A stretch of DNA of 64,000 nt from Companilactobacillus heilongjiangensis (GTDB lineage Bacteria > Bacillota > Bacilli > Lactobacillales > Lactobacillaceae), in the NCBI RefSeq assembly GCF_000831645.3, contig NZ_CP012559.1:1054001-1118000 (forward strand), written 5' to 3'. Shown in pieces: positions 27,744 through 57,505 of the stretch. Position 1 is the stretch's first letter, and the number at the start of each line of letters is the position of its first letter. Both the position numbers and the translations under genes were made by a program. Under the pieces are notes generated by a model, which made no database searches, had not been told where the DNA came from, and saw only the letters and a list, made by a program, of their open reading frames with translations.

Positions 27744-27922
27744 GCCGTCTCCAGATCTGATAGCATTTGCCTGCTGTGCGGACCGGTCAGAGCCCAAAGA
27801 CGATCTCTGACCTCGGTTTGAAGCTTCGCAAAAATCGCGAATCTCCAAACACGCCCGGTGGAGTAAGAGCTAAAGCTCTAACACCACTACCACTGCTGGT
27901 AAATACTATCAGATCTTCCGAC
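27744..27922 (+). repeat. Structured repeat, copy 2 (full length)
   Basis: 179 nt from GCCGTCTCC to CTTCCGAC. The closing helix pairs AGATCTGATAGCATTT with AAATACTATCAGATCT. Inside are three hairpins: GGTCAGAG / CTCTGACC; GTTTGAAGCTTCGC / GCGAATCTCCAAAC; and TAAGAGCT / AGCTCTAA within GGTGGAGT / ACACCACTACC. Conserved linkers TGCGGACCGG, CCTCGGTTTGAAGC and ACACGCCCGGTGG are present. It is richer in G+C than its surroundings and lies just 5' of the thioesterase gene. Confidence 0.85.
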
Positions 27923-27988
27923 TATTGCTTTTTATAAAATAATAATATGAATGTTTTACAAAATATTAAATTTAAAATGGGGAAGATT

Positions 27989-28477
27989 ATGAAACAGATT
28001 ACATGTCAAGAAACACGTACGATCAGTGAGAGAATTATTTTTGATGGGGATTTGAATGATAAAGGAACATTATTTGGTGGCAAGACACTCAGTTTATTGG
28101 ATGAGAATGCAGGCTTAGCCAGTTTTAAATTAGTAAAAGCTAAGATTGCTACCGCAAACTATGATCATGTGAATTTTTGGAAACCTATTACAACTGATAA
28201 ATATATTAAATTTGAATCGTTTGTAACAGGAGTCTCAGGACGACAGATTGAAGTTTTCACCAAGATTATTAGCCATGATTTAAAAACAGATGTTACAGAG
28301 ATTGCTTTTACAAGTTTTTGTACATTGGTTGTTTTGCAGAAAGTTGATTTACCAAGGTTGGTACCAGAAACGGTTGAAGAAAAATATCTTTGTGCCGGTT
28401 TTGCAAAACGTTTAGCTGCTAGACAAGAAGACTATAACAATAAAGAAGATTTTTTAAGCCGCTTGAGCTTAGATTAA
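27989..28477 (+). CDS. Acyl-CoA thioesterase, hotdog fold (YkhA-like)
   Basis: 162-residue thioesterase of the acyl-CoA hydrolase family that cleaves acyl-CoA to free acid and CoA. The start at ATG 27989 (MKQITCQETRTIS) follows GGGGAAG; ATG 27947 lacks a ribosome site. The hotdog signature GTLFGGKTLSLLDENAGLA is at residues 29-47, with the conserved Asp/Glu. A second helix region (NYDHVNFWKPI) corresponds to the family D-V-F block. A terminator follows. Confidence 0.87.
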   Translation: MKQITCQETRTISERIIFDGDLNDKGTLFGGKTLSLLDENAGLASFKLVKAKIATANYDHVNFWKPITTDKYIKFESFVTGVSGRQIEVFTKIISHDLKTDVTEIAFTSFCTLVVLQKVDLPRLVPETVEEKYLCAGFAKRLAARQEDYNNKEDFLSRLSLD

Positions 28478-28480
28478 GTA

Positions 28481-28512
28481 GAGTTAGTCATATATTGACC
28501 AGCTCTTTTTTT
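28481..28512 (+). terminator. Terminator after the thioesterase gene
   Basis: Imperfect stem GAGTTAGTCA / TGACCAGCTC with a run of seven T. Confidence 0.65.
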
Positions 28513-28670
28513 CTAGAATAGCAAAATATTTTAAGCGCAAAATATTTTAAGTTGAAAATGTGTTATAAAGGTTGCTTTAACATTTTTCGATTGAAAGACT
28601 AGGCTGGTCGTACTTGTTCTGGAAACGGAAATACTATAAATTATTAAAATACTGTTTCAAGTAAATTACT

Positions 28671-28699
28671 TTGACACACATAGTAATTGGTGATACATT
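28671..28699 (+). promoter_or_regulatory. Putative promoter of the padR-DUF4097 operon
   Basis: -35 TTGACA at 28671-28676, 17-nt spacer, -10 TACATT at 28694-28699; 33 nt upstream of the PadR start. Confidence 0.7.
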
Positions 28700-28731
28700 A
28701 TCTACATGGAAATAAAAGGTAGGTATGGATT

Positions 28732-29082
28732 ATGAAACCATTAATTTCTAAAGATATAATTCGTGGACATACAGCTACGATTGTTTTAAACATTCTCAAC
28801 CAAGGTGACAGCTATGGTTATGAAATTGCCAAGATGGTTAAAGAATTGAGCCACGATAAATATGAATTAAACGAAGCTACGCTTTACACGGTCTTTCGAC
28901 GACTTGAGAAAAACGATGATATTGCCAGTTATTGGGGCGATGAAAGTCAGGGTGGTCGTCGTAAGTATTATCAAATAACGACTCAAGGCAAGCAGACGTT
29001 AGAAGATAATATTGAAGCTTGGAAATTTGCCAAAGATGTAATTGATGATTTGATTTTAGGAAGGATACAAGATCATGAGTGA
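28732..29082 (+). CDS. PadR-family transcriptional regulator
   Basis: 116-residue winged-helix repressor of the PadR family. The sequence shows the N-terminal HTH (GHTATIVLNILNQGDSYGYEIAKMV) and the wing with EATLYTVFRRLEKN and GGRRKYYQITTQGK. It belongs to the short PadR-s2 type. Its last 8 nt overlap the DUF4097 gene, a pairing seen often in Firmicutes where PadR represses its own envelope-stress operon; that role is inference here. Confidence 0.93.
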   Translation: MKPLISKDIIRGHTATIVLNILNQGDSYGYEIAKMVKELSHDKYELNEATLYTVFRRLEKNDDIASYWGDESQGGRRKYYQITTQGKQTLEDNIEAWKFAKDVIDDLILGRIQDHE

Positions 29083-30430
29083 AATGATAAATAGATTAGT
29101 AGATGAAAAGTTAACAAAAATTTTTGCGGATTATCCCGATAATGACGACTTACAAGAGTTACGAGAAGAGTTGGCATCTGATTTGATTGCCTCAGCAGAA
29201 GATAAAAAAACTGCCGATATGACGGATGAAGATGCGGTCACAGCAGCGTTTAAAGGATTTGGTGATATTGATGAAGTTATTGATCAAGTATTAGACGATA
29301 GCCACGATGAAGATGAAAGCAATCATTACCATAAAACAATTCATGAACATCATATTGATTTAGATGACAACGGTATCAGAATTGATAATGGAAAATTACT
29401 CAATATTGATGATGATGGAATTACCATTAATAATGGTAAAACTATCAGAATTAACTCTGATGGTGTTAAATTGGGCAACATGTTTATCAATGAAGATGGT
29501 ATCAACTTTAATGGTCAGCAAACTAAGACTAAGGAAACATTCGATGATGTCAATGCAAAATTTAATGATGCTGATTACGATACCGAAGTACACGTTGAAT
29601 CTTTGCCTTTAACCGATGAAAGTGAATTTTCACCAGTTGGAATTGAAAAGATCGATATTGATTATGAAGATGCCGATTTGAAGATTTTGCCAACTCGAAG
29701 TCACAAAATTGTGGTTCGTGAATATATGTCACGTACCAATCCTGATTATCAAGTTAAGACTGATATTGTCGATGATACCTTGGTCATTAAACAAGGTCGA
29801 ATTCCTCATTTCTTGCCTTTAAAAATTAAAGTACAAGTTTTAATTCCTCAAGATTTCAATGGCAAAATGCGTGTTACGAACCGAAATGGTAGTTTATTAC
29901 TCCAAGATTTGGATAGTGTCGATCAAGCATTAATTAATGTTCGCAGTGGGTTAGTTAATGCCAGAGATATTGATATAAATCAACTATTGATAAAGTCAAC
30001 ATCTGGAAAGACTGTCTTGGAAGATGTTACTGCCAAGGACTCACTATCGATTGACTCAAGAAGTGGCATTATTAGATTGGATGATGTGTTCAGTCCTGAT
30101 TACAATATTGTAGCTAATAGTGGCACGATTAAGGGACTCGATCTTGGTGGGGCAGGTTCAATTACCGCTAAATCAGGGACGATTAAAATCGAATTTGATA
30201 AAATTACTGCAGATGTCAATGTTTCTAACAACAGTGGCACGATTAAGTTGATTATGCCTGAGCATGATTCTTATAATTTTAACCTTGAAGCTCATAGTGG
30301 ATTGGTAAAAATGAGTCATGCAGCAAAACTAAAGCATGACGTTCAGAGCCTCAAAGAGGGTACAGTTGGAACGGATCCACAGTATAATTTAACTGTTAAA
30401 GCAAATTCCGGCACAATTAAAGTAAATTAA
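29075..30430 (+). CDS. DUF4097 beta-solenoid protein with internal repeats
   Basis: 451 residues, no transmembrane helix or signal peptide seen. Residues 1-75 form an acidic helical domain like DUF1700 (VDEKLTKIFADYPDNDDLQELREELASDL is the opening). A His/Asp-rich linker follows at 76-93. Next are about four degenerate 12-15-residue repeats of the form D-x-D-G-I-x-I-x-N-G-K at 97-147. The C-terminal 250 residues are a DUF4097 beta-helix with recurring SGTIK / SGLVK turns. Cotranscribed with padR. Function unknown; relatives are linked to cell-envelope stress. Confidence 0.8.
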   Translation: MSEMINRLVDEKLTKIFADYPDNDDLQELREELASDLIASAEDKKTADMTDEDAVTAAFKGFGDIDEVIDQVLDDSHDEDESNHYHKTIHEHHIDLDDNGIRIDNGKLLNIDDDGITINNGKTIRINSDGVKLGNMFINEDGINFNGQQTKTKETFDDVNAKFNDADYDTEVHVESLPLTDESEFSPVGIEKIDIDYEDADLKILPTRSHKIVVREYMSRTNPDYQVKTDIVDDTLVIKQGRIPHFLPLKIKVQVLIPQDFNGKMRVTNRNGSLLLQDLDSVDQALINVRSGLVNARDIDINQLLIKSTSGKTVLEDVTAKDSLSIDSRSGIIRLDDVFSPDYNIVANSGTIKGLDLGGAGSITAKSGTIKIEFDKITADVNVSNNSGTIKLIMPEHDSYNFNLEAHSGLVKMSHAAKLKHDVQSLKEGTVGTDPQYNLTVKANSGTIKVN

Positions 30431-30433
30431 AAG

Positions 30434-30471
30434 AAACTGAGATGAAAATTAGAATTTCATCTCAGTTTTTT
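30434..30471. terminator. Terminator between DUF4097 gene and the EbsA-like gene
   Basis: Stem AAACTGAGATGAAAT-type arms (AACTGAGATGAAA / TTTCATCTCAGTT) with A and T tracts on both sides; can serve both convergent genes. Confidence 0.88.
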
Positions 30472-31012
30472 AGTTTGTTTTATTAGAAAGGATTTGTAAG
30501 ACATTGGTCAGCCGATACATTGTGTGTTGCGGATCATGCAATTGATCAAAGGAGAGGTCCAATTCGGTGGAAGCTTGATTCAACTCTAACTCTAAGAAAA
30601 ATGGTTTTCTCAGTCCTGGAAAAATGGACTGTTTAGCTGGTTTGATTGTTAAAATATCAGCCGTTGAATATTGCTGATTTTCTTCGTGAACTTGAAAACC
30701 TTTAATTTGAGAATAACTGATAAATTGAAATTCAGCCTGATCTGGGTGGAAAATAAGTTTTAATTTATCTCGGTAAGTATTCATTTTATAGTAAGAAATG
30801 CCATGCTTTTCTAGTTGCCAATGTCCAAATAATTTTGGCAAAAGAACTGGAAAATAAACGCAAAGTAGTAAAAACAAAACTATCAAAAATGATAATATGG
30901 ATACTTTTATGTTAGCGATTAACCCAACGCTACCAGCCAAAAAGCTGACTAAAAAACTTACAATTATTGGACGATGATTGATCTTTTTTCCAAACTCGAT
31001 CGTATCGATCAT
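30470..31012 (-). CDS. Membrane protein, possibly EbsA family
   Basis: 180-residue protein with two adjacent N-terminal transmembrane helices (about 15-55) and a soluble C-terminal part containing the PH-like pattern QLEKHGISYYKMNTYRDK and SYSQIKGFQVHEE. Layout and length resemble EbsA-family proteins of lactobacilli, but I am not certain. The ATG at 31012 follows GAGGGAG. Divergent from the yfcC transporter. Confidence 0.55.
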   Translation of the reverse strand: MIDTIEFGKKINHRPIIVSFLVSFLAGSVGLIANIKVSILSFLIVLFLLLCVYFPVLLPKLFGHWQLEKHGISYYKMNTYRDKLKLIFHPDQAEFQFISYSQIKGFQVHEENQQYSTADILTIKPAKQSIFPGLRKPFFLELELNQASTELDLSFDQLHDPQHTMYRLTNVLQILSNKTN

Positions 31013-31053
31013 TCTAATATCTCCCTCTTGAATCTAATAATATTGTAATATTT

Positions 31054-31067
31054 TGCAACCGTTTACA
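31054..31067 (+). promoter_or_regulatory. cre-like site upstream of the yfcC-pepV operon
   Basis: TGCAACCGTTTACA matches the CcpA consensus TGWNANCGNTNWCA at all but one position. It lies in the divergent region, suggesting carbon-catabolite control. Confidence 0.6.
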
Positions 31068-31179
31068 CAACTGATGTTAAAGGAAATTTTATTTAAAAAT
31101 ATTTCGCTATAAAGCATTGTAATAGTTTATTTTATCGTATATCCTGAGACTATATTATAAATATAGGAGGGTTGATTTA

Positions 31180-32685
31180 ATGGAAAAGAAAGCAAAAAAA
31201 TGGCAAATGCCATCCGCTTATACAATTTTGTTCTTCTTGATAATCGTTGTTGCAATTTTAACATGGATTATCCCCGCAGGTGAGTACGCAACTACCAAAG
31301 CGGGAAATATCATTGCAGGTACCTACAAGGCACGGGCAAGTAGTCCTCAAGGTATCTGGGATGTATTCTTAGCACCAATCAACGGGATGGTTGGTACTGA
31401 TATAACTGAAGGTTCAATTTCAGTTTCACTCTTTATTTTGGTTATTGGTGGTTTCTTAGGGGTCGTCAATAAGACTAAAGCGTTGGACGACGGTATTAGT
31501 TCAACTGTTCGTAAGTATCAAGGTAAAGAAAAAGCACTTATCCCAATTTTAATGATCTTATTTGCAATCGGTGGCTCCACTTACGGTATGGGTGAAGAAA
31601 CGATTGCTTTCTACCCAATTTTGATTCCAGTTATGATCAGTGTTGGTTATGACTCGATCACGGCGATTTCGTTAGCTTTGATTGGATCACAAGTTGGATG
31701 TTTGGCATCAACAGTTAATCCATTTGCGACAGGTGTTGCTTCACAAACAATCAATATTTCACCTGGTGACGGTTTGATTCCACGGTTTATTTTATTGATT
31801 ATTGTAACCGGTATCAGTATCGTCTATGTAATGCATTACGCTGACAAAGTTAAGAAAGACCCTTCAAAGTCGGTTGTTTTTGAACGCCGTCAAAAAGATC
31901 TTGAAGAATTTAACATGGAAGATAGATCAGTTGGAGAAAAATTAACTAAGAAACAAAAGAGTGTTCTTTGGCTATTTGCCTTAACATTCGTTGTTATGAT
32001 CACTAGTTTGATTCCTTGGTCAAGTTTGAATCCTGGTTGGACATTCTTCTACAGCTTTACAAAGTGGCTCACAAATATTCCATTCATTGGTGCTTTAATT
32101 GGTAAAGATTTGGCTCCACTAGGTACATGGTACTTTACAGAAATTACAACACTATTCTTTATGATGTCAGTTGTTATCATGTTTGTTTTCCGCATGAAGG
32201 AATCTGATTATATCAGTGCTTTCATGGGTGGTATGACAGAATTTATCAGTGTTGCTATTATCGTTGCTGTTGCTCGTGGTATTCAAGTTATCATGAACAA
32301 TGGTTACATCACTGCTACAGTCTTGCATGCTGGTGAAACTGGTTTGCAAAATCTTTCTGCAGGTGTCTTCATCGTTCTAACATATATTTTCTACATTCCA
32401 ATGTCATTCTTGATTCCTTCAACTTCCGGCCTTGCTGCTGCAACAATGGGAATCATGGGACCACTTGGTAAATTCTCTGGCGTTGATGGCTCACTTGTTA
32501 TCACAGCTTATCAATCAGCTTCTGGACTAGTTAACTTGATCACACCAACTTCTGGTATCGTTATGGGTGCCTTGGCAATTGGTCACGTTGATATTGTTAA
32601 ATGGTGGAAGTACATGTGGAAACTGGTTGCCATTCTGTTCGTGGTAATCGCAGTATTCTTAGTTATTTGTTCGATGTTTAAATAA
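31180..32685 (+). CDS. YfcC family (C4-dicarboxylate carrier superfamily) transporter
   Basis: 501-residue polytopic membrane protein of the YfcC/AbgT-like ion-transporter superfamily. The start MEKKAKKWQMPSAYTILF and IIPAGEYATT are characteristic; family motifs GMGEETIAFYPILIPVM (about residue 143) and IPSTSGLAAATMGIMGPLG (about 408) are seen. The ATG follows TAGGAGGG. It sits 30 nt upstream of pepV, so it probably imports a peptide or amino-acid derivative that PepV cleaves; substrate is inference. Confidence 0.85.
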   Translation: MEKKAKKWQMPSAYTILFFLIIVVAILTWIIPAGEYATTKAGNIIAGTYKARASSPQGIWDVFLAPINGMVGTDITEGSISVSLFILVIGGFLGVVNKTKALDDGISSTVRKYQGKEKALIPILMILFAIGGSTYGMGEETIAFYPILIPVMISVGYDSITAISLALIGSQVGCLASTVNPFATGVASQTINISPGDGLIPRFILLIIVTGISIVYVMHYADKVKKDPSKSVVFERRQKDLEEFNMEDRSVGEKLTKKQKSVLWLFALTFVVMITSLIPWSSLNPGWTFFYSFTKWLTNIPFIGALIGKDLAPLGTWYFTEITTLFFMMSVVIMFVFRMKESDYISAFMGGMTEFISVAIIVAVARGIQVIMNNGYITATVLHAGETGLQNLSAGVFIVLTYIFYIPMSFLIPSTSGLAAATMGIMGPLGKFSGVDGSLVITAYQSASGLVNLITPTSGIVMGALAIGHVDIVKWWKYMWKLVAILFVVIAVFLVICSMFK

Positions 32686-32715
32686 TATTTGGAAATAATT
32701 CTGGGGGTTTGAATA

Positions 32716-34050
32716 ATGGAACAATTTATTACAGACGAAATTCAAGACGAAGCTATCAAGGACTTGGGTGAATTAGTTGGTATTGCCTCATTTAACAGTG
32801 AAGCAGAACCTAATGCACCATTTGGTAAGGGACCTAAAGCAGCACTTGATAAGACAATGGAATTAATGGACAAATTGGGCTTTAAGACTCACGAAGATCC
32901 AGATGGCTATTATGGCTATGCTGATATTGGTGAAGGTGATCAAACATTTGGTATCGTTGGTCACTTGGATGAAGTTCCAGCTGGAAATTTGGAAGCTTGG
33001 GATGTAGAACCATACAAACTAACTATCAAAGATGGTAAGTTGTATGGACGTGGTACTCAAGATGATAAAGGACCTACTATTTCAGCAATTTATGCTATCA
33101 AATCCATTTTGGATAAAGGTTATAAATTTAACAAAAAGATTCGTGTAATCTTTGGTACTGACGAAGAAATTCTTTGGAGATGTTTGGCTGAATATAACAA
33201 GAAGGAAGACCCAATCGACATGGGTATTGCTCCTGATGCTGAATTCCCATTGATTTATGCTGAAAAAGGTTTACAACAATCATATTTAACTGGCCCTGGC
33301 TCAACTGAATTGAATCTTGATCTTGAGAATGCGTTCAACGCTGTTCCTGGTAAAGCTATTTATGATGGTCCAAAGCAGGCTGAAGTATTTGCTGCCTTAC
33401 AAGCTCACAATTTCGATGCTGATCAAAAAGATGGCGAAATTGAAGTTCACGGTAAGTCAGTTCACGCTATGAACGCTCCAGAAGGTACTAATGCTGTTGT
33501 CAGATTAGCTATTGCTTTGGCTGACGTATTCCCAGACATTGCCGTTTTGAAATTCTTGAAGGCTTTTGGCGAAGATGCTAATGCTACTAACTTGTTGGGC
33601 GATGTTTCTGATGATGTATCTGGTAAGTTGACTTTCAATATTTCAAGTTTGAAGATCACACCAGAAGAGTCAAGAATGCAAATTGATATGCGTATTCCTG
33701 TAAAGATTGACCACGATGAATTAATACAACAAGTTTCCGATGCAGTTGCTAAGTTTGATATGAAGTATGAAAACTTTGATTACGTAGCACCATTATACGT
33801 TCCAACTGACAGTGAACTTGTTAAAACTTTGATGCAGACATATCAAGATTTAACAGGCGATACTAAATCACAACCAGCAATTTCAGGCGGTGCTACATTT
33901 GCTAGAACAATGCACAACTGTGTTGCTTTTGGTGGGATGTTACCAACAACTCCTGATTTCATGCACCAAGCTAATGAAAACTGGAGCAAGGCTGATATGA
34001 GAAAAGCTATGGAAATTTTTGCTGAAGCTATCTATCGTCTTTGCGTATAA
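32716..34050 (+). CDS. pepV: Dipeptidase PepV (M20 metallopeptidase)
   Basis: 444-residue cytoplasmic zinc dipeptidase that releases amino acids from dipeptides and some N-acyl forms. The metal ligands of the M20 family are seen in order: GIVGHLDEVPAG (His), GRGTQDDKGP (Asp), FGTDEEILW (Glu-Glu), APDAEFP (Asp) and the C-terminal DFMHQANE (His). Length and the PepV-specific long lid domain match lactobacillal PepV. Cotranscribed with the YfcC transporter and followed by a terminator. Confidence 0.93.
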   Translation: MEQFITDEIQDEAIKDLGELVGIASFNSEAEPNAPFGKGPKAALDKTMELMDKLGFKTHEDPDGYYGYADIGEGDQTFGIVGHLDEVPAGNLEAWDVEPYKLTIKDGKLYGRGTQDDKGPTISAIYAIKSILDKGYKFNKKIRVIFGTDEEILWRCLAEYNKKEDPIDMGIAPDAEFPLIYAEKGLQQSYLTGPGSTELNLDLENAFNAVPGKAIYDGPKQAEVFAALQAHNFDADQKDGEIEVHGKSVHAMNAPEGTNAVVRLAIALADVFPDIAVLKFLKAFGEDANATNLLGDVSDDVSGKLTFNISSLKITPEESRMQIDMRIPVKIDHDELIQQVSDAVAKFDMKYENFDYVAPLYVPTDSELVKTLMQTYQDLTGDTKSQPAISGGATFARTMHNCVAFGGMLPTTPDFMHQANENWSKADMRKAMEIFAEAIYRLCV

Positions 34051-34069
34051 GATTTCAATAATTAATGAA

Positions 34070-34095
34070 AATAGGGCTGAGGTCCTATTTTTTTT
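34070..34095 (+). terminator. Terminator after pepV
   Basis: Short stem AATAGG / CCTATT with eight T following; the stem is only about 6 bp. Confidence 0.55.
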
Positions 34096-34112
34096 GTTCT
34101 TTTTTAAACTTG

Positions 34113-34293
34113 GCCGTCTCCAGCGCTGAGAACATTTACCTGCTATGCGGACCGGCCCGAGCCAAGAGGCGGTCTCGAGCCTCGGTTTGAAGCCTTACCA
34201 AAGACCGGTAAGTCTCCAAACACGCCCGGTGGTGTAACGGCTGAAGCCGTAACGCCACACCCACAGCGGGTAAATATTCTCAGCGCTTCCGAC
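34113..34293 (+). repeat. Structured repeat, copy 3 (full length)
   Basis: 181 nt, GCCGTCTCC to CTTCCGAC. Closing helix AGCGCTGAGAACATTTACC pairs with GGTAAATATTCTCAGCGCT. Hairpins: GGCCCGAG / CTCGAGCC; GCCTTACC / GGTAAGTC inside GGTTTGAA / CTCCAAAC; TAACGGCT / AGCCGTAA inside GGTGG / CGCCAC. The same helices as copy 2 with different paired bases. Lies directly 3' of the pepV terminator. Confidence 0.85.
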
Positions 34294-34631
34294 TATTTTT
34301 ACTTTGAAATAATCTTATCTATTATTGATTGATTATTGATATTAAATTTAGCTTTACATAAAAAGAAACTTATTTCCTTATTCTCAAGACTAAAAGTTTG
34401 TTTTATATTTCAAAATTCGGTAGCGTAACAGTGAAGGAATTAATACGAACATATTTGTCTTTGGTAAATTTAATTGTTACTTTTGACAGATATAAAAGAT
34501 GTTCAGAGTTTATTAGTTTACTTAGGACATTTCATTTGATTCAATAATAAGATATTTGTTTTACTTGGAATAAGCATAATTATTATTTGATTCGAAAAAT
34601 AAATTATTAATATTAATTTAGAGATAAATTA
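34294..34631. other. Gene-free, AT-rich stretch between repeat copies 3 and the minimal copy
   Basis: About 340 nt with no open frame of note and no RNA gene I recognise. It is bounded by a forward full repeat and a reverse minimal repeat. Confidence 0.5.
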
Positions 34632-34671: not shown

Positions 34672-34701
34672 AGTTTTTAAATACATTTGAGGTGTAGAAA
34701 C

Positions 34702-36948: not shown

Positions 36949-37060
36949 GCCTTTGTGGGTTTTGAATTAATGTAGAGTTGAATTTGATTTGGTAACTTTA
37001 TTGTTTTTTATCGTCAATATTTGAATTAATACAGTTATTCTAGGGCTTTAATAATGACTA

Positions 37061-37211
37061 GTCAGAAGGGTAGAGAAGTATTCACCAGGAGTGGAAGTGG
37101 CGTTATGGCGTCAGCCATTACACCACCGGGTTGCCGAACTTGCAAGGCTTCAACCGAGGTACGAGACCGTACCGCAAAGCAGGCAAAATACTTCTCTGCT
37201 CTTACGACGGC
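37061..37211 (-). repeat. Structured repeat, copy 4 (reverse orientation)
   Basis: 151 nt from GTCAGAAG to GACGGC, the reverse complement of the family. Closing helix AGAGAAGTATT / AATACTTCTCT. Hairpins: GTGGCGTTATGGC / GCCATTACACCAC, a shortened middle arm, and GGTACG / CGTACC. The middle arm is the reason it is shorter than other copies. It lies between the HAD gene and the beta-glucoside PTS promoter. Confidence 0.82.
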
Positions 37212-37330
37212 AGATATAAATATAAAAATCATGTTTTATAAATAATACACAAGACAAAACCTACTATTATCAATAAACAATCAAATTAAGACAATTTTGA
37301 AACTAATATTTGTTTTTTGGTAAAAACATC

Positions 37331-37851: not shown

Positions 37852-41123
<3,272 letters not shown>

Positions 41124-41190: not shown

Positions 41191-41380
41191 GCCGCCAGGC
41201 CGCCAACTTGTGACAGTGATTTTACCTGCTGTGTGACCGGTGCGAGCCAAGGTCTCGCGCCTCGATTTTGAGCTTCGCAAAACCCGCGAATCTCAAAATA
41301 CGTCAGTGGGGTAAGAGCAGAAAATCGCTGCTCTAACGCCACTTGTACTGCTGGTAAATCACTGTCACAAGTTGGCTAAC
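41191..41380 (+). repeat. Structured repeat, copy 5 (forward)
   Basis: About 190 nt. Its closing helix is almost perfect over 20 bp, AACTTGTGACAGTGATTT with AAATCACTGTCACAAGTT, and shares no sequence with that of copies 2, 3, 4 or 7. Inside: GTGCGAG / CTCGCGC, ATTTTGAGCTTCGC / GCGAATCTCAAAAT, and TAAGAGCA / TGCTCTAA. Lies immediately 3' of the operon terminator, 150 nt from copy 6 in the opposite orientation. Confidence 0.82.
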
Positions 41381-41531
41381 GTATTAAAGGATGTTTTTTG
41401 TATCCGTTATTAGATGATTTAACGAAGTACCTGTTTTGAAACAAATTAAAGGTTTAACCGATAATTTTCGTTAAAAAATTCAATAATGCGCACGTTTAAA
41501 GTATCAGTTAACCTGAAAAAAACAAACTTTA

Positions 41532-41712
41532 GCCGGAAGTTGTCAGTAAGATAGTCCAGCAGTGGAGGTGGCGTTATGGCTTTAGCCATTACACCACGGG
41601 GCGACTTTGGATACTTGCTGCACTTGCAAGGATTCAAAGCGAGGTTCGAGACCGCATTTTGGCTCGGACCGGTCCCCACAGCAGGACTATCTTACTGACA
41701 ACTGGAGGCGGC
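41532..41712 (-). repeat. Structured repeat, copy 6 (reverse)
   Basis: 181 nt from GCCGGAAG to GGAGGCGGC. Perfect 19-bp closing helix GTTGTCAGTAAGATAGTCC / GGACTATCTTACTGACAAC. Inside: GGTGGCGTTATGGC / GCCATTACACC, a middle arm with TTTGGATACTTGC / GCAAGGATTCAAA, and GGTTCGAG / CTCGGACC. It ends 85 nt before the RpiR regulator start, so it may lie in or near that promoter. Confidence 0.85.
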
Positions 41713-41796
41713 ACCTAGATTATGTAATTTGTTACATATATAATATAATTATGTTCACTAAAAATGATATAGACCAATCATAAGGGAGGTTAAAAT

Positions 41797-46825: not shown

Positions 46826-47953
46826 ATGACATGGAGTGTCTGGCATGTTTCACCTGTTATTACTAGTATCTTTTTCATTCTGGGTGTTTTCACGCTTTAT
46901 CAAGTTGTCTTCGATTGGTTGAAAACCGTCGTACATGAGAAAAAGCTTTCAATTACTGATAACACATTGAGGTCTGCTTTTGGTGTTATCTACATGTTAA
47001 TTTTCGTATTCGGCATGCAGTCAACAATAGTGGGAAAAAGTATTTCGTGGGAATTCATGAACTTTATTGTCATTGGTTTGATTTTCTGTGCATACTTTCT
47101 TAACATTAGAGTTCCAATTTATTATTTTGTACCAATCGTCTTAGTTTATATGGTCTTTAACAATTCTATTGGTTATTGGGAATCATGGGCGCACGCTTTG
47201 AGTATCATGATTACTTATTGGTCGTTCAATTATATTCGTAGGATGCCAGTTAGAAAGCGTCCGTTTGTTGGCTACATAATTACCGGTGTCGTTTGGGGAG
47301 CAATTATGTGGTTCTTCGTTGCAGTAAAATTCCATTTAACTACAAGAGTTTTCTTTCAAGAATGGAGTTATCTGATTATATTTGAAGTCCTACTGTATAG
47401 TTATGTTCGGATGTTGTTACGTGAAAGTGATGTCAAATGAAGACTTGTTGCTTTTGCTAACCATGATGCGTTAACTAAAACTGAAAATTACGCAGCTTAT
47501 GTGGCTGAAATGAAAGTTCTTTTTCCAATGAGTATTCGTAATAAGTTAAATTTATCGATGATGATGTTTGATATTGATCATTTTAAGCAAGTTAATGATA
47601 CCTATGGTCACTTGGCTGGCGATTTGGTTTTACAAAGGGCTGTAACAGAGACTCAAAAGGTGATTAATAATAATGATCCAAATGTGAAATTGTATCGGAC
47701 TGGTGGAGAGGAATTTAATATTGTCTTTCCAGGTTATGACTTGCCGTCAACTGAACCGATTGTTAGGCAAATTTTTACAGCATTGAATAGTTTGAATATT
47801 CAAGATGGTAAAAATCAAATTAAAATCACAATTTCTGTTGGGGTATCTAGTTTGGCCGTAACTGATAAGAGTCCTGATGATTTTTACAATCGAGTGGATG
47901 GCAACCTTTATCACTCTAAGAAAAATGGTCGTATGCAAATTACGGCACAATAA
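46826..47953 (+). pseudogene. GGDEF membrane protein interrupted by an in-frame TGA
   Basis: The frame from ATG 46826 encodes a membrane domain of about five or six helices (204 residues) and stops at TGA 47438-47440. The same frame then continues for 170 codons through an intact GGDEF domain (MMFDIDHFKQVNDTYGHLAGD, RTGGEEFNIVF) to 47953. Alignment with the paralogue at 48199 is colinear: LRESDVK-stop-RLVAFANHDALTKTENY against LRDSNLKMRLLEFANHDSLTKTENY. So a single stop codon separates sensor and diguanylate cyclase parts. A GTG at 47501 could reinitiate but leaves out the start of the domain. Confidence 0.8.
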
Positions 47954-47971
47954 GGTTAGATGTGTCCGTGC

Positions 47972-48004
47972 AAAAAGGATAGTTGTTAAATATTGTCCTT
48001 TTTA
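47972..48004 (+). terminator. Hairpin after the interrupted GGDEF gene
   Basis: Stem AAAAAGGA / TCCTTTTT over a 16-nt loop. Confidence 0.55.
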
Positions 48005-48070
48005 TGGATTTCAACTTTTGAGTTTGATGTATCAATGATTAGAGTGGCTCTAAAGGCTGTTAAGCCGTTC

Positions 48071-48114
48071 AAATCTTGCTATTCCACAAATATGTGAAAC
48101 AGCGAGATTTTTTT
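48071..48114 (+). terminator. Second terminator between the two GGDEF genes
   Basis: AAATCTTGCT..TTCCACA pairs with TGTGAA..AGCGAGATTT (a few mismatches) and is followed by seven T. Confidence 0.7.
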
Positions 48115-48198
48115 GTGCTACTATGGCATAAGTTGTTATTTTATATAAATAAAATTATAAATAATTAAAAAAGTAGCCTAGCAGGAGGTTTCGGTTTT

Positions 48199-49335
48199 TT
48201 GACATGGTCAGTTTGGCGTTTGTCGCCATTTATCACGAGTGTTTTTTTTGTTCTAGGTGTTTTTACATTGTATCAAGTCTTTTTTGATTCTTTGAGGACT
48301 TGGTTCTATTCAAAAGATATACGATTTAATGAAGATCTCATAAATTCTTGGCTTGGTGTTATTTATATGGGAATTTTCATTATCAGTATGCAATTGAAGC
48401 TTGTTAATACGTCAATCTCTTGGCAATTTATGAATTTTCAACTCATCGCATTGATTTTCTGCGCGTATTTCTTAAATATTCACGTTCCGTTTTATTATTT
48501 GTATCCATTACTAGTAGCGTATATGCTTTTTAACGGGTCGATTGGATATTGGGAATCTTGGTGTCACAGTGTTACATTACTAAGTTTCTATGAAGTTCTG
48601 AGTCACATCAGACGTCAGCAGCATAATGATCATCCGTTTTATATATATATGGTATCAGGTATATTCTTTGTTGGACTGTTGTGGTTCTTTATGAAGATAA
48701 AGTTTGGCTTCAGTTGGCAAACATATTATGAAGAATGGCTTTATTTAGCTATTTTTGAAATGTTGCTATATAGCTATGTCGGAATGATTTTACGAGATAG
48801 CAATTTAAAAATGCGTTTGTTGGAATTCGCCAATCATGATTCTCTGACAAAAACTGAGAATTATGCAGCCTACGTTTCGGAAATTCGCAACCTCTTTGAT
48901 GCTAGTTTTCAGAGTAATTTATCGCTTTCGATGATGATGTTTGATATCGATCACTTTAAGCAGGTTAATGATACTTATGGTCATTTGGCCGGTGATAAGG
49001 TGTTGAGGCATACAGCGGATGTTGTTCAAACGATTCTTGATGAAAATGATCCGAAAGTTAAATTGTATCGGACAGGTGGCGAGGAATTTAATGTCATTTT
49101 TCCAAGTTATGATTTATCGGCGACTGAACCGATAGTTCGACAGATTTTTATGGCATTGAATCATTTGAACATTGATTTAGATGATAAGGCTGGAAATTCA
49201 ATTTCCATCACTGTCTCAGTTGGCGTTTCAACAATTTCTAAAGAGGACTTGAATCCGAATGACTTCTACTCACGTGTAGATGGAAATCTTTATCATTCGA
49301 AGAAAAATGGGCGTAAGCAAATTACGGCTAAATAA
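48199..49335 (+). CDS. Membrane-bound GGDEF protein, putative diguanylate cyclase
   Basis: 378 residues starting at TTG 48199 behind GGAGG. The N-terminal 200 residues hold five or six transmembrane helices with no sensor family I recognise. The C-terminal GGDEF domain has MMFDIDHFKQVNDTYGHLAGD and an active-type signature RTGGEEFNVIF, so it should make c-di-GMP. The RxxD inhibitory site is not evident. It is the intact paralogue of the interrupted gene upstream (MTWSVW...SPFITS start shared). No EAL or PilZ gene is nearby. Confidence 0.88.
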   Translation: MTWSVWRLSPFITSVFFVLGVFTLYQVFFDSLRTWFYSKDIRFNEDLINSWLGVIYMGIFIISMQLKLVNTSISWQFMNFQLIALIFCAYFLNIHVPFYYLYPLLVAYMLFNGSIGYWESWCHSVTLLSFYEVLSHIRRQQHNDHPFYIYMVSGIFFVGLLWFFMKIKFGFSWQTYYEEWLYLAIFEMLLYSYVGMILRDSNLKMRLLEFANHDSLTKTENYAAYVSEIRNLFDASFQSNLSLSMMMFDIDHFKQVNDTYGHLAGDKVLRHTADVVQTILDENDPKVKLYRTGGEEFNVIFPSYDLSATEPIVRQIFMALNHLNIDLDDKAGNSISITVSVGVSTISKEDLNPNDFYSRVDGNLYHSKKNGRKQITAK

Positions 49336-52066: not shown

Positions 52067-52483
52067 CTAACACTTCCTTAAATTTTATGTATTAAGAATA
52101 ACATGAATAATTATGTAAAGAAATAGTAAATAGTTCGTATTTTACTTGAATGTCAAAAAGATTGAGGAAAATTTGGATGGAAAGTTCATTATTTTTGGAT
52201 TTTAATATTTCTGTATGCGCTTTAAGTGCTTTATTGAAAGTATTTAGATTTTGTATGAAGTACGATGATGGATTTATAAAATTACCGGTTAAAAATTTTG
52301 ATTACCGATAATTTTGATAGATAAAACGTCTAATTGGTACAAACCAAAGCCTTGAATCGGCCATGGTAGCTAAAAGAAATATGTAAAAAAATATTGCCCC
52401 AAATTATATCCAAAAATACCGCTCTGTCGCCTTTTGCTAAACAAACTCAAATATTAAAAATAAATGATTTAAAAAATAATTTG
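52067..52483. other. Divergent intergenic region between guanine deaminase and the lac-type operon
   Basis: About 420 nt, AT-rich, no coding frame. It carries a PurBox-like sequence on the minus strand near 52130 and ends at the cre/promoter of the lac-type operon. Confidence 0.55.
52130..52142 (-). promoter_or_regulatory. PurBox-like sequence upstream of guanine deaminase
   Basis: AAATACGAACTAT on the minus strand fits the LAB PurR box AWWWCCGAACWWT with one mismatch. Suggests purine control of guaD and the permease; not conclusive. Confidence 0.35.
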
Positions 52484-52484
52484 T

Positions 52485-52498
52485 TGAAACCGTTTACA
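52485..52498 (+). promoter_or_regulatory. Consensus cre site of the lac-type operon
   Basis: TGAAACCGTTTACA is a perfect match to TGWNANCGNTNWCA. It overlaps the proposed -35 (TTTACA), so CcpA binding should block transcription when preferred sugars are present. Confidence 0.85.
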
Positions 52499-52521
52499 AA
52501 ATAAAATATCTGTCATATACT
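52493..52521 (+). promoter_or_regulatory. Putative promoter of the lac-type operon
   Basis: -35 TTTACA at 52493-52498, 17-nt spacer, -10 TATACT at 52516-52521. Confidence 0.75.
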
Positions 52522-52551
52522 AATCCGTGTTGAAAGATGAATATATTTTCA

Positions 52552-52653
52552 GTGAATTGTTACTATTAAATTAGGCGAGATCACTCAACGTATTTTCTTC
52601 AATGATAAGTCCAGAGACTATCATTAGGAAAAACGTTGGTGGTCTCTTTTTTG
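52552..52653 (+). ncRNA. RAT antiterminator site plus terminator, leader of the lac-type operon
   Basis: GTGAATTGTTACTATTAAA followed by TTAGGCGAGA (52552-52580) resembles the ribonucleic antiterminator of BglG/LicT proteins. It overlaps the left arm of a long terminator: GAGATCACTCAACGT (from 52577) pairs with ACGTTGGTGGTCTC, with an inner stem AATGATAAGTC / GACTATCATT and a T run ending about 52653. Binding of the antiterminator to the RAT would prevent the terminator and allow transcription of the whole operon. Confidence 0.85.
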
Positions 52654-52675
52654 TTGTCAGAAAGGGGGTAATGAG

Positions 52676-53530
52676 ATGGTAGAGATTGCCCAAGTCTTTA
52701 ACAATAACAGTGCGTTAGTCAACCTAGGAGATGATCGCCAAGCAATTGTAAAGGGCAAAGGAATCGCTTTTAAGAAGACCAAAGGTGGACAAGTTGATTC
52801 AGGCAAGATTGAGAATATCTTTTATTTAAATACAAAATCATCACGAGAAAATTTATACTTTTTGATCAAAGATATTCCAATTGATGTTGTAACTACTACT
52901 TATGAAATTATTGATTATGCGAAAAAAGACTTTAACTATAACATTTTAGATTACGTTTACATCACCTTGAGTGACCATATTTTCGGTTCATATCAAAGAT
53001 TATTGGCTCACACGTACCAAGAGAGTTTAATTCCTGATATGAGCGAGCAATATCCGGACGAATACGAAATTGCCAGTCATGGTTTAGATGTTATCAATGA
53101 AAATCTTCATGTTCACTTCCCACGGTCGGAGATTAAAAGTATTGCACTACATTTCATTAATGCTAAAGGTGAAGAGTCTCAAGCTAGTGACTTAAAGGAA
53201 AATACTTCCAAGGAAGTTAGCGACATTGTGACAACGATTTTGAATAAGAATCGGATTTATCGCATTGAAGGAAATGGCAATTATTTTGACCGTTTCATGA
53301 TTCACTTACAGTATTTAGCAGGACGCCTTGATAATGACGACACTGAAGATCGTGACTTTAGCAATAGGCTGGAATCGGAGATGAAAAAAGAGTATCCGCG
53401 TTCTTCTAAGATTGCTAAAGAAATTTACACAAGTCTTCAATCAAAGCTTTCGACTAGGCTAAGTAGTAATGAACTATTATATTTCATAATTCACATTCAA
53501 CGATTAACACAAGAAAAAACTACGAAGTAG
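52676..53530 (+). CDS. lacT: BglG/LicT-family transcriptional antiterminator (LacT-like)
   Basis: 284 residues. The N-terminal CAT RNA-binding domain (residues 1-55) contains DDRQAIVKGKGIAFKKTKG. Two PRDs follow with the regulatory histidines in LSDHIFGSY, ALHFINA, MIHLQYL and FIIHIQRL, phosphorylated by EIIB and HPr. It is preceded by its own RAT/terminator, so it autoregulates. Next to EIIA, EIICB and LacG-type genes, it corresponds to LacT of Lactobacillus casei. Confidence 0.9.
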   Translation: MVEIAQVFNNNSALVNLGDDRQAIVKGKGIAFKKTKGGQVDSGKIENIFYLNTKSSRENLYFLIKDIPIDVVTTTYEIIDYAKKDFNYNILDYVYITLSDHIFGSYQRLLAHTYQESLIPDMSEQYPDEYEIASHGLDVINENLHVHFPRSEIKSIALHFINAKGEESQASDLKENTSKEVSDIVTTILNKNRIYRIEGNGNYFDRFMIHLQYLAGRLDNDDTEDRDFSNRLESEMKKEYPRSSKIAKEIYTSLQSKLSTRLSSNELLYFIIHIQRLTQEKTTK

Positions 53531-53541
53531 AGGTAATTATT

Positions 53542-53892
53542 ATGGCAGTTACAAAAGAACAAATTTCAATGACAGGATTCGAAATCGTGGCTTACGCAGG
53601 GGACGCCAAGACCGCTTTAATCAAGGCTTTAGAGAGTGCTCGCGTGGGTAAAATTGATGAAGCTAGAGCATTAGTTGAAGAAGCTAATAAATCAATTGTT
53701 GATGCTCACAACTCACAAACAAAGTTATTGGCTGACGAAGCTGGTGGTATGAATATGGATGTCACATTCATTATGGTTCATGGTCAAGATACCTTGATGA
53801 CAACAATGATGTTAATGGATGAGTGCAAATTCTTTATTGATGAGTATGAACGTATTAATAAGATTGAAGAAAAATTAGATATGAAGAATTAA
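53542..53892 (+). CDS. lacF: PTS lactose-class EIIA component
   Basis: 116-residue Lac-family EIIA with VDAHNSQTKLLADEA and the phosphorylated His in FIMVHGQDTLMTTMM. 11 nt after the antiterminator gene. The lactose rather than cellobiose assignment rests on the EIICB fusion and the LacG-like enzyme downstream. Confidence 0.93.
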   Translation: MAVTKEQISMTGFEIVAYAGDAKTALIKALESARVGKIDEARALVEEANKSIVDAHNSQTKLLADEAGGMNMDVTFIMVHGQDTLMTTMMLMDECKFFIDEYERINKIEEKLDMKN

Positions 53893-53930
53893 AGTTTTAG
53901 AACCAAATTTGATCTAGGGGGAAAGTAATT

Positions 53931-55667
53931 ATGTCAGGTGTATTTGATAAGCTCAAACCGGCCTTTGAGGCCATTGCTGCGAATAAATATGTTTCTGCTA
54001 TTCGTGACGGATTCATTGCCTGTATGCCAATTATCATCTTCTCAAGTATTTTCATGATGATTGCCTATGTTCCAAATGCATGGGGATTTTATTGGCCTAC
54101 TAATGTAACAAATATCTTTATGATTGCATATAACTATTCAATGGGACTATTAGCTTTGTTCGTTGCTGGTACAACCGCTAAGAATTTGACTGATAGTCAA
54201 AATTTGGAATTGCCTAAGACAAACCAAATTAATCCTGTTTCTGTAATTATTGCATCAGAAATCGCTTTTATTATTCTATCAATCTTGCCACTAAAGACTG
54301 GTAATGACTTAACTTATATGGGTACACAAGGTTTGATCTGTGCTTATATCGTTGGTCTAATTGTTCCAAATATTTACTATATCTGTATTAAAAACAATGT
54401 AACTATTAAGTTACCTCCACAGGTACCTCAAAATATTTCACAAACATTTAAAGATCTTATTCCTATGGCTTCATCCGTTACAGTATTCTGGTTATTCGGT
54501 ATCGGATTTAAAGCTGCAACAGGAACTATTCTTCCTCGTTGGATTATTCAAGTTCTATCGCCATTATTTAGAGCTAGTGATTCTTACATTGGACTTTCAA
54601 TTATTGCCGGAGCCATGGCCTTCTTCTGGTTCTGTGGTGTTCAAGGTCCATCAATCGTTCAACCAGCCGTTGTTCCTATTATGATTGCTAATACTGCTGC
54701 TAACTTGGAACAATATCAAGCCGGTGTTCACGCATCACACGTTTTAGCTATGAATACAATGGATTACGTTATGAACTTTGGTGGTACTGGATCAACATTC
54801 GTTGTTGCCTTTATCATGTTGTTCGCTGCTCGTTCAGCCCAATTGAAGGCTGTTGGTAAGGCTGCCTTTATTCCTGGTTCATTCTCAGTTAATGAGCCTG
54901 TACTTTTCGGTATGCCAATTATCATGAACCCAATGTTCTTCCTACCATTCTTGGCAACACCTATTGTCAACGTATGTATGTTCAAGTTCTTCGTTAATGT
55001 ATTAGGTATGAACAGTATCATGTATACAATGCCATGGACAATTCCTGCACCAATTGGTATTTTGATTTCAACCGGATTCGCTCCGTTATCATTTGTCTTT
55101 GTTCTCTTAGCTTTGGTAGTCGATGTACTTATCTACTTCCCATTCATTCGTGTTTACGATAAGACACTATTAACAGAAGAAAAAGCTAAGGAAGCTGCTG
55201 GCGAAGGCGATGTTGCCCTTGCTGGTGCTACTCCAGAAGTTGCTCTTGATTCAGATAACTCAAACGAAGGTGCCACAGTTGAAGCATCTACAGATAATTC
55301 TGCTGAAGCAACAGTCGCTACGAGTTCTAAGGATACAGAAGAGTACTTTAAGAATAATGAAGTTGATGTCTTGGTATTGTGTGCCGGCGGTGGTACTAGT
55401 GGTATTTTAGCTAATGCTTTGAACAAACTTTCAAAGAATAAAGGCTTGAAGTTATCCGCTGCTGCTCGTGCTTATGGTCAAGATATGGATCTTATTCAAA
55501 ATATGAATATGGTTATCTTAGCTCCACAAATGGAAAGTATGAAAGGTAATCTAAAGAAGATTACTGATAAATATGGCGTTAAGTTGGTAACTACAACTGG
55601 TCGTCAATACATTGAATTGACAAACGATGGAGATAAAGCCTTAGACTTTGTTGAATCTAATCTTTAG
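53931..55667 (+). CDS. lacE: PTS lactose-class EIICB permease
   Basis: 578 residues. Membrane EIIC domain (1-420) with LRDGF-type start IRDGFIACMPIIIFSSIFMM, MNFGGTGSTFVVAF and FSVNEPVLFGMPIIMN. It is joined by an Ala/Glu/Ser/Thr-rich linker (about 425-475) to an EIIB domain with the phosphorylated Cys in VLVLCAGGGTSGILANAL. The fused CB order and length are those of LacE. GGGGGAAAG precedes the ATG. Confidence 0.94.
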   Translation: MSGVFDKLKPAFEAIAANKYVSAIRDGFIACMPIIIFSSIFMMIAYVPNAWGFYWPTNVTNIFMIAYNYSMGLLALFVAGTTAKNLTDSQNLELPKTNQINPVSVIIASEIAFIILSILPLKTGNDLTYMGTQGLICAYIVGLIVPNIYYICIKNNVTIKLPPQVPQNISQTFKDLIPMASSVTVFWLFGIGFKAATGTILPRWIIQVLSPLFRASDSYIGLSIIAGAMAFFWFCGVQGPSIVQPAVVPIMIANTAANLEQYQAGVHASHVLAMNTMDYVMNFGGTGSTFVVAFIMLFAARSAQLKAVGKAAFIPGSFSVNEPVLFGMPIIMNPMFFLPFLATPIVNVCMFKFFVNVLGMNSIMYTMPWTIPAPIGILISTGFAPLSFVFVLLALVVDVLIYFPFIRVYDKTLLTEEKAKEAAGEGDVALAGATPEVALDSDNSNEGATVEASTDNSAEATVATSSKDTEEYFKNNEVDVLVLCAGGGTSGILANALNKLSKNKGLKLSAAARAYGQDMDLIQNMNMVILAPQMESMKGNLKKITDKYGVKLVTTTGRQYIELTNDGDKALDFVESNL

Positions 55668-55685
55668 TTCGGAGGATGATTGTAA

Positions 55686-57110
55686 ATGAGTAAAACATTA
55701 CCAAAAGATTTCTTAATGGGTGGCGCCAGTGCTGCCTATCAAGTTGAAGGTGCTACAAAAGAAGATGGCAAAGGACGCGTTCTTTGGGATGACTTTCTAG
55801 AGAAACAAGGTCGTTTCAGTCCAGATCCAGCCGCTGATTTCTATCACCGTTATGACGAAGATTTAACACTTGCTGAGGAGTATGGCGTGCAAGTAATTAG
55901 AGTTTCAATCGCTTGGTCACGTATTTTCCCAGATGGTGCTGGCAAAGTTGAACCTCGTGGAGTCGCCTATTATCACAAGTTGTTCGCTGCTTGTGCTAAA
56001 CACCACATCGTTCCATATGTAACGCTACATCACTTTGATACACCTGAAAGATTACATGAGTTAGGTGACTGGTTGAGTCAAGAGATGTTAGATGACTTCT
56101 TGGCTTTTGCTAAATATTGTTTCAAGGAATTTCCTGAAGTTAAGTATTGGATCACTATTAATGAACCAACTTCAATGGCCGTTCAACAATATACTTCTGG
56201 AACATTCCCACCAGCTGAAAAAGGTCGTTTCGACAAGACTTTCCAAGCTGAGCACAATCAAATTTTGATTCACTCTAAGATTGTCAATGCATATAAAGAT
56301 ATGGATTTAGGCGGTGAAATTGGTATTGTTCACGCACTGCAAACCGTTTATCCATATAGTGACAGTGCAGGTGACAAACATGCCGCTGCCTTACAAGATG
56401 CGCTAGAAAATAGACTATATCTGGACGGAACTTTAGCCGGTGAATATCACAAGGAAACTCTAGATTTGATTAAAGAAATTCTTGATGCTAATGATCAACC
56501 AATGTTCAAGTATAACGATGAAGAAATGGCTGAAATCAGCAAAGCCGCTCATCAGCTAAACTTTGTTGGAGTAAATAACTACTTTAGCAAATGGTTACGT
56601 GAGTATAACGGCGCTTCGGAGACTATTCATAACGGTACTGGTGCAAAGGGAACTTCAGTTTCTCGCTTGCACGGTATCGGTGAAGAGAAGAAGCCTGACG
56701 ATGTTGAAACAACTGACTGGGATTGGTCAATTTATCCAAAGGGGATGCATGATATTCTAATGAGAATTCATGACGATTACCCATTGGTACCAGATATTTA
56801 TGTAACTGAAAATGGTATTGGTTTGAAAGAAAGCCTACCAAAGGATGCTACTAGTGATACTGTAATTGATGATCCTAAGCGAATCGATTATCTCAAGAAA
56901 TACTTCAGTGCAATTGCGGATGCCATTAATGATGGTGCCAATGTCAAAGGGTACTTCATCTGGTCCTTGCAAGATCAATTTTCTTGGACTAATGGTTACA
57001 GCAAGCGTTATGGATTGTTCTTCGTCGACTTCCCAACGCAGAAACGTTACGTTAAGAAGAGTGCCTACTGGTTTAAGAAACTCAGTGAAACACACGAAAT
57101 TGAAGACTAG
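55686..57110 (+). CDS. lacG: 6-phospho-beta-galactosidase (GH1, LacG-like)
   Basis: 474-residue GH1 enzyme that splits lactose-6-phosphate to galactose-6-phosphate and glucose. Opening KTLPKDFLMGGASAAYQVEG and LHHFDTPERLHELGDW match LacG; acid/base Glu in TINEPTS; nucleophile in YVTENGIGL; phosphate site TNGYSKRYGLFFVDF. It is clearly distinct from the pair at 38-41 kb. No tagatose-6-phosphate genes (lacABCD) are in the window, so galactose-6-phosphate must be handled elsewhere. A phospho-beta-glucosidase role cannot be excluded. Confidence 0.88.
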   Translation: MSKTLPKDFLMGGASAAYQVEGATKEDGKGRVLWDDFLEKQGRFSPDPAADFYHRYDEDLTLAEEYGVQVIRVSIAWSRIFPDGAGKVEPRGVAYYHKLFAACAKHHIVPYVTLHHFDTPERLHELGDWLSQEMLDDFLAFAKYCFKEFPEVKYWITINEPTSMAVQQYTSGTFPPAEKGRFDKTFQAEHNQILIHSKIVNAYKDMDLGGEIGIVHALQTVYPYSDSAGDKHAAALQDALENRLYLDGTLAGEYHKETLDLIKEILDANDQPMFKYNDEEMAEISKAAHQLNFVGVNNYFSKWLREYNGASETIHNGTGAKGTSVSRLHGIGEEKKPDDVETTDWDWSIYPKGMHDILMRIHDDYPLVPDIYVTENGIGLKESLPKDATSDTVIDDPKRIDYLKKYFSAIADAINDGANVKGYFIWSLQDQFSWTNGYSKRYGLFFVDFPTQKRYVKKSAYWFKKLSETHEIED

Positions 57111-57233
57111 TTTCAAATTTCCTCGAATTGAAATTGTCTTGCGCCACAACTACCTAAAAAATAATTGTTTTTAATATGAGACGTTATTTCCGTCTCCCCT
57201 AGGTATTGAAAACAGTTAACCGTTGAAAAACGT

Positions 57234-57272
57234 AAAGAGCTTTGAGATATCTACATCTCAAAGCTCTTTTTC
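57234..57272 (+). terminator. Terminator of the lac-type operon
   Basis: Stem AAAGAGCTTTGAGAT / ATCTCAAAGCTCTTT with a short loop and T run. Confidence 0.92.
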
Positions 57273-57312
57273 GGTACAATATATATTAGGACGTATGTTG
57301 CTAGTTAAGTAT

Positions 57313-57505
57313 CCCGTCTCCAGAGCTGGGAAATATTCACAAGCTGTGCGGAACGGCCCGAGCCAAAGTGCGGTCTCGAACCTCGGTTTGAAGCCTTGAC
57401 ACAGTTCGTCAAGGCTCCAAACACGCCCGGTGGTATAAGTACGGGAGATACCTCCCGTACTTATACCACTACCACGTCACACAAATATTTCCCAGCTCTT
57501 CCGAC
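57313..57505 (+). repeat. Structured repeat, copy 7 (full length, extended hairpin)
   Basis: 193 nt, CCCGTCTCC to CTTCCGAC. Perfect closing helix AGAGCTGGGAAATATT / AATATTTCCCAGCTCT. Hairpins GGCCCGAG / CTCGAACC, GCCTTGAC / GTCAAGGC inside GGTTTGAA / CTCCAAAC, and a lengthened third arm TATAAGTACGGGAG / CTCCCGTACTTATA. The junction sequences TGTGCGGAACGG, CCTCGGTTTGAAGCC and ACACGCCCGGTGG match copies 2 and 3. Confidence 0.87.

Follow-up and report, generated by a model that had tools for sequence, protein, structure and literature searches.

Repeats that fold and lie between genes have been described in several bacteria. BIMEs and REPINs consist of inverted pairs of unlike members about a short spacer, and their unit is a hairpin of 20–40 bp. 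Against this background we report on a family of intergenic elements of ~180 bp in Companilactobacillus heilongjiangensis, first seen in a stretch of 64,000 nucleotides (NZ_CP012559.1, positions 1,054,001 to 1,118,000 of the forward strand), hereafter the window. Streptococcus pneumoniae carries the folded intergenic repeats BOX, RUP and SPRITE, which are given with ~15 to 130+ copies and are presumed to be non-autonomous mobile elements in the description consulted (PMC3049150). Closer in length are Efa-1 of Enterococcus faecalis (163 bp, 65 copies) and Bcr1 of the Bacillus cereus group (167 bp), for which 31 copies are given in that study (PMC2267715). Folded interspersed repeats, and miniature inverted-repeat transposable elements (MITEs) in general, are thus already well known, as these two accounts indicate (PMC3049150; PMC2267715). 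For the present family no earlier description was found in the titles and abstract openings of the open-licence literature. The explanation that we favour, with a probability of roughly 0.6, is that the copies are mobile-type DNA of the MITE kind, non-autonomous and forming a large family, built around an old structured core of ~180 bp of which low-copy relatives exist elsewhere in the order.

Copies in the window and in the genome

A first-pass annotation made from the letters of the window had named six copies, held to be intergenic and non-coding. A covariance model of the element (R1) matches all six at 85–199 bits and places them within ~10 bases of the positions first given. Two are of type A and lie on the forward strand at 27742–27923 (187.2 bits) and 34111–34294 (199.3 bits). 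A copy on the reverse strand at 37060–37213 is partial, since by its score (85.3 bits) and alignment it lacks the P3 hairpin and part of P4. Two type-B-like copies form a convergent pair, the left member at 41197–41377 on the forward strand (131.3 bits) and the right member at 41531–41714 on the reverse strand (196.9 bits); the pair listing places a 153-bp spacer between them (41378–41530). The last copy, on the forward strand at 57311–57506 (152.8 bits), is of type A2 and has a long third hairpin. None of them overlaps an open reading frame (ORF) call of at least 90 aa by more than 30 bases.

The annotation proposed a search of the genome, where absence of other copies would weaken the family claim; the whole genome yields at least 150 R1 matches with E-values of 2.1e-30 or better; blastn with one copy gives 40 scored matches. 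Within 0.6 Mb of this genome we counted 236 distinct copies (96 in the window and the first stretches, 140 in further stretches), a lower bound like all our copy counts, although it includes 25 weaker matches that were entered by hand and some of which may be remnants. The stretches were picked around listed copies and therefore give no copy density. By ad hoc rules 186 copies were assigned to types A, B and C and 27 to type A2, leaving 23 without a type. Seventeen of the 236 overlap an ORF call by more than 90 bases, the calls being those of a simple program whose gene starts may lie too far upstream.

A branched fold with strong covariation

The fold modelled in R1 agrees with the architecture that had been proposed, namely a long closing helix around three hairpins with constant joins. 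A terminal helix of three pairs leads into P1, the long closing helix; a conserved short helix comes next and then a branch, in which an inner helix encloses the hairpins P3 and P4 with the hairpin P5 alongside. The sequence of P1 is nearly free; the inner helices are short and connected by conserved joins. The model comprises 183 positions and 61 pairs and was built from 67 near-full copies (5 in the window, 62 elsewhere in the genome), which remained of 97 nhmmer copies once 24 partial copies and 6 of the 73 full ones had been removed. Strand calls are those of the covariance model, since the partial symmetry of the element led iterated nhmmer to include antisense matches.

Compensatory base changes, claimed at the outset from a handful of copies, are pronounced across the 67 aligned rows. 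Pairing holds in 95.3% of 4025 cells, compared with 84.1% in shuffled alignments and 37–44% when the structure is slid by 1–3 columns. Changes on both sides occur in 42 of the 61 pairs (mean of the shuffles 24.1), and covariation scores 0.311 where the shuffles give 0.108. None of 500 shuffles was as high on any of five measures, in a control that is inflated by the relatedness of the copies, which remains in it. No Rfam 15 family reaches its curated cut-off on any element tested, in keeping with the failure of the first pass to recognise a named family. The best match below threshold is SSRC8_2 (Streptococcus sRNA 8, a small RNA), at 33.5 versus 72 bits, on the complementary strand of a low-copy relative between infB and rbfA (L252, 1537–1593).

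By eye, the motif GAGCC...GGTCTC with one unpaired base recurs in the P3 hairpin, and in type B also in P4, across several groups including low-copy relatives; it might be a protein-binding motif.

The A2 subfamily and its IS982-like ends

The 27 A2 copies sit in units of ~305 bp, and inverted end repeats are common to both ends of several of these. A 13-letter end motif lies beside 16 of the 27 A2 copies, matched at 10 or more letters. Across this genome the end pattern was counted 77 times, its reversed control 6 times. Among 21 copies with a loose version of the motif on both sides, target duplications were read by eye in six, exact in L172, L164, L077 and L209 and with one mismatch in L147 and L122. 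A separate reading by eye covered nine units: duplications are exact over 8–9 bp in L282, L283, L292 and L293 and over 7 bp in L284, and carry one mismatch in L290 and L280. Shorter units lack the inner hairpins, and the 101-bp unit L282 lacks the core altogether; deletion after insertion may account for these, so that they do not prove the core dispensable.

The A2 copy of the window lies in a 317-bp IS982-MITE-like unit (57291–57607; genome position 1111291). A pattern search places its left end repeat at 57291–57308 on the forward strand, with one mismatch to ACGYRTGGTGCTAGTTRA; a drifted right end repeat was recognised by eye at 57589–57607 on the reverse strand, and no clear target duplication remains. 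A partial relative of this unit, covering 45% of the query at 85%, occurs on a Limosilactobacillus reuteri plasmid (NZ_CP030091.1, 14897–15047) and is probably a deletion derivative. No plasmid or phage match was found to the type A copy at 34111–34294.

In the related genome G006 a 961-bp unit (L294) has ends similar to those of the A2 units and contains a broken IS982-family transposase gene. The gene is in two pieces, aligned to positions 1–111 and 120–242 of the 243 of the NCBIfam IS982 model. The best reading of the A2 subfamily is as an IS982 MITE. Its tie to the IS982 ends makes movement open to experiment. A 3-kb transposon in the own genome (1490996–1493977) was considered and rejected, the ORFs between its ends resembling ordinary host genes by eye. 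No transposase-like ORF was seen by eye in L281, L295 and L296, of which no family search was made.

Distribution across the order

R1 finds matches in 24 of 60 genomes (the own genome included), of which 23 are among the 36 of the genus and one belongs to another family. Among 120 loci with the same repeat, 80 were named. They are mostly from Companilactobacillus (huachuanensis, nantensis, mishanensis, hulinensis, kedongensis), with four from Levilactobacillus hammesii and seven from unrelated phyla; in the three of these seven that were inspected by eye the arms do not match. Across 295 genomes of the order R1 detects 11 at 1e-5, and a wider model (R2), built on an alignment with ~7 antisense rows, detects 27 at 1e-4, spread over 9 of the 74 genera. 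Thirteen of these genomes belong to six genera of the own family, and twelve of the thirteen have at least 8 matches each. Another family contributes eleven genomes from a single genus, each with one match, and the remaining three genomes come from two more families. The genus with single matches (f4/g5) looks like Streptococcus; four of the eight loci fetched from it sit between infB and rbfA, and to the eye their core motifs are recognisable and their P1 sequence seems unrelated. One genome (G159, f7) has an R1 match and none with R2 at 1e-4, and another (G058) a weak R1 match (8.8e-5) and none with R2.

G022, G031 and G023 carry a divergent subfamily that lacks P3 (L057, L058 and L061), with 132, 38 and 20 matches, respectively.

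Orientation, pairing and shared sites

Of neighbouring copies separated by less than 450 bp, 68 of 74 cases are convergent in this genome and 59 of 69 in relatives, which against an expectation of one in four corresponds to probabilities of 4e-34 and 6e-26. Other genera also hold convergent neighbours (L250, L251, L261, L144). The pairing of unlike types is clear: same-type pairs number 7 of the 68, where random assignment gives a mean of 17.8 and 7 is the lowest of 2000 shuffles. Pairs of A with B amount to 23 of 68 (random mean 15.0, highest shuffle 25), and this preference by itself does not go beyond the shuffles. The spacers have a G+C content of 25%. Spacers of the own genome are mostly unrelated, so that a common spacer sequence is unsupported; some of the 120 loci with the same repeat share ~120 bp.

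Genome G278 has copies in same-direction tandem ~25 bp apart (C4 201747–202224 and C5 138459–138781), unlike the convergent pairs.

Many copies lie within ~100 bases of a gene. The median distance from the 5' end to the gene is 62 bp for paired and 68 bp for single copies; it is 43 and 32 bp, respectively, where the gene points towards the copy, and 85 and 102 bp where it points away. In 62 of the 85 copies without a partner the nearer gene is on the 5' side. Copies tend to have their 5' end on the side of the nearer gene, whichever way it points, and convergent neighbours would follow where a gap holds two copies, one facing the gene border at each side.

Many sites are shared between species. 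Matching the 5' flanks of own copies with loci of relatives gave 90 comparisons, counted as element–locus combinations into which one copy may enter twice. A copy is found at the same place and in the same orientation in 52, another copy within 600 bp in 16, and none in 22, several of which show end remnants by eye. One near-empty site was noted, L240 compared with L165, with ATAATGT on both sides. Clustering of flanks is dominated by partner elements. The occupants of shared sites are rarely each other's closest kin: in 49 own–relative site pairs the orthologue is the closest copy in 7, and in the median case it is outscored by 158 of 481 other copies.

A second short recurring motif (AACTAAAGGTTGAAAG...) was noticed by eye as small hairpins beside or in place of elements (L169 at ~6780–6900, L165, L131, L077, L025).

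Weighing the explanations

If the elements are MITE-type DNA, an IS982 transposase would move the A2 units in trans, and the occupants of shared sites may be exchanged through re-insertion or gene conversion. The weakest step concerns the fold, which might be kept because the host tolerates copies better when their single-stranded DNA, or an RNA read from the complementary strand, is folded, as in a structure that stops transcription in both directions at gene borders. In favour of the MITE explanation stand the number of copies, the end motif and target duplications of A2, the IS982 gene pieces between similar ends, the near-empty site, the partial relative on a plasmid and a mismatch pattern that shows no dependence on gene orientation. 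Several observations weigh against this explanation. Outside A2 the end motif is near control level, with 10 or more of the 13 letters in 1 of 209 copies (1 of the 186 of types A, B and C), and at one mismatch the end pattern is present in 4 of the 36 genomes of the genus, whereas 23 hold the element. Fifteen of the 21 units with the loose motif have no clear target duplication, nor do L285 and L291. The two IS982 pieces score 73.4 and 106.6 bits, each below the whole-protein cut-off of 130, and no intact IS982 helper gene was found. Clean empty sites are rare. Finally, a MITE origin by itself does not account for the conserved joins, nor for the copies that occur singly in other families.

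A broader version of the story is one that we regard as unlikely. The element would be an old one, spread through the order Lactobacillales, with a branched core kept as DNA and not as RNA, and a polar boundary role in which the 5' end faces a gene border irrespective of the gene's direction; its sites would be long-lasting, its copies swapped or re-templated so that the arms stay matched, and IS982 MITEs would merely be its latest vehicle.

Among the rivals, DNA mechanics survives best, improbable as we judge it. Arm-to-arm correction of imperfect palindromes by template switching in replication would keep the arms matched without any selection for a folded product. Watson–Crick cells make up 97% of the total and there is no excess of G-T, as such correction would have it. 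At the 49 site pairs two-sided changes also outnumber one-sided ones in P1 (250 v 62), P2 (10 v 2), P3 (32 v 24), P4 (87 v 23) and P5 (71 v 48), and in some pairs (L085/L242, L082/L237) a block of P1 is altered on both arms with the block ends unchanged. The terminal helix (19 v 19) and the short inner helix P1c (22 v 25) show no such excess, however, and all these counts rest on model-fitted alignments. Moreover, most occupants appear to have been exchanged: since they are usually closer to other copies than to the orthologue, two-sided changes may have come in with another copy. Part of the two-sided excess is due to the exchange of hairpins or of whole copies; in L033/L160 P1 is identical and P3 and P4 have changed. 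Template switching also leaves the conserved joins, and the same core in other families, unexplained.

Slightly less probable still is that each element is a structured RNA gene on the complementary strand which starts in the AT-rich spacer, the convergent pairs then being divergent genes for small RNAs. Part of the evidence lies in the mismatches. In a set of 53 of the 61 pairs, followed through 458 copies, A-C exceeds G-T by 161 to 73 of 12,198 cells in this genome and by 135 to 80 of 11,520 in relatives, the cells being non-independent and the counts taken from model-fitted alignments. The excess is present in all four gene contexts, in the own genome and relatives alike. An A-C excess is a poor match to a wobble-tolerant RNA on the strand as read and equals G-T on the complement; either it is the complement that folds, or the two strands mutate differently. 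It also limits the first-pass interpretation, which is otherwise supported: fold, covariation, copy number and the lack of an Rfam match at cut-off stand, and the RNA implied by its suggested RNA-seq check fits poorly on the strand as read. Genes on the complement would further agree with the AT-rich spacers, with letters conserved immediately past the end of the element and with the weak SSRC8_2 match to the complement of L252. Against them, G-T makes up less than 1.4% of cells, and in one of the eight pairs left out, in P5, T-G is frequent on the strand as read (50 of 66 rows), counter to the A-C pattern. This genome's spacers, moreover, are mostly unrelated, and 234 aligned upstream regions contain no -35-like signal, for which reason a promoter at the spacer end was dropped.

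Host-serving boundary or terminator elements, which would stop transcription both ways at gene borders, are a doubtful third. The 5'-side polarity of partnerless copies, the 52 of 90 comparisons with a copy in place and the strength of two-way folds suit such a role, but the copy is absent in 22 of the 90 comparisons and 13 of the 36 genomes of the genus have no R1 match. There is little in favour of a cis-acting RNA, a leader or 3' untranslated region structure of the adjacent gene. Covariation is strong and many copies are close to a gene; all four gene contexts nevertheless occur (61 ++, 67 --, 51 -+ and 38 +-) and the mismatch bias is unrelated to gene direction, a poor fit to any cis-acting RNA that would be read on the strand of its gene. 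REPIN-like mobilisation by a RAYT (Y1) transposase, which the inverted pairs of unlike members might recall, was rejected as highly improbable, because RAYT (PF01797) does not track element-rich genomes (a search of 41 genomes found it in 18, and in none of G002, G006 and G009, each with at least 44 element matches) and because target duplications and IS982 ends of the DDE type mark the A2 units.

The distinction between these explanations matters beyond the present family. Whether the structure of a repeat is selected, and at the DNA or the RNA level, is rarely testable in bacteria; with 236 or more copies, a good number of them at sites filled in a second species too, selection, templating and exchange become separable by counting. 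The mismatch pattern suggests that covariation, the usual mark of a functional RNA, may be strong even where RNA-type wobble is lacking; if so, it is a caution for covariation-based RNA discovery.

Other features of the window

A PyrR binding site (RF00515, 60.2 bits) lies at 18767–18868, ahead of pyrimidine-type genes. Two pairs of adjacent similar ORFs, at 38193–41123 and 46826–49335, correspond to repeat families D1–D2 and D4–D7, are 71–80% alike and are likely gene duplications.

Comparison with known systems

The closest parallels each share some of the properties of the element. BIMEs and REPINs have in common with it the inverted arrangement of unlike members around a short spacer, and differ in that the present unit is 180 bp long and branched and is not tracked by RAYT. 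BOX, RUP and SPRITE are likewise folded intergenic repeats thought to be non-autonomous and mobile, but as described (PMC3049150) their architectures are other than that of the present element: boxA-B-C modules in BOX, end repeats in RUP and a terminator-like form in SPRITE. Efa-1 and Bcr1 are folded intergenic repeats as well, and near to it in length; Efa-1, compared by its description, has two adjacent stem-loops (PMC2267715). It is the IS982-family MITEs that come nearest to the A2 units, which are short and non-coding and have inverted end repeats, duplications of 7–9 bp and ends like those of the 961-bp IS982-type unit. The interior of A2, by contrast, is unlike such MITEs, being a covarying branched core that is common to types A, B and C, which lack those ends, and to other genera.

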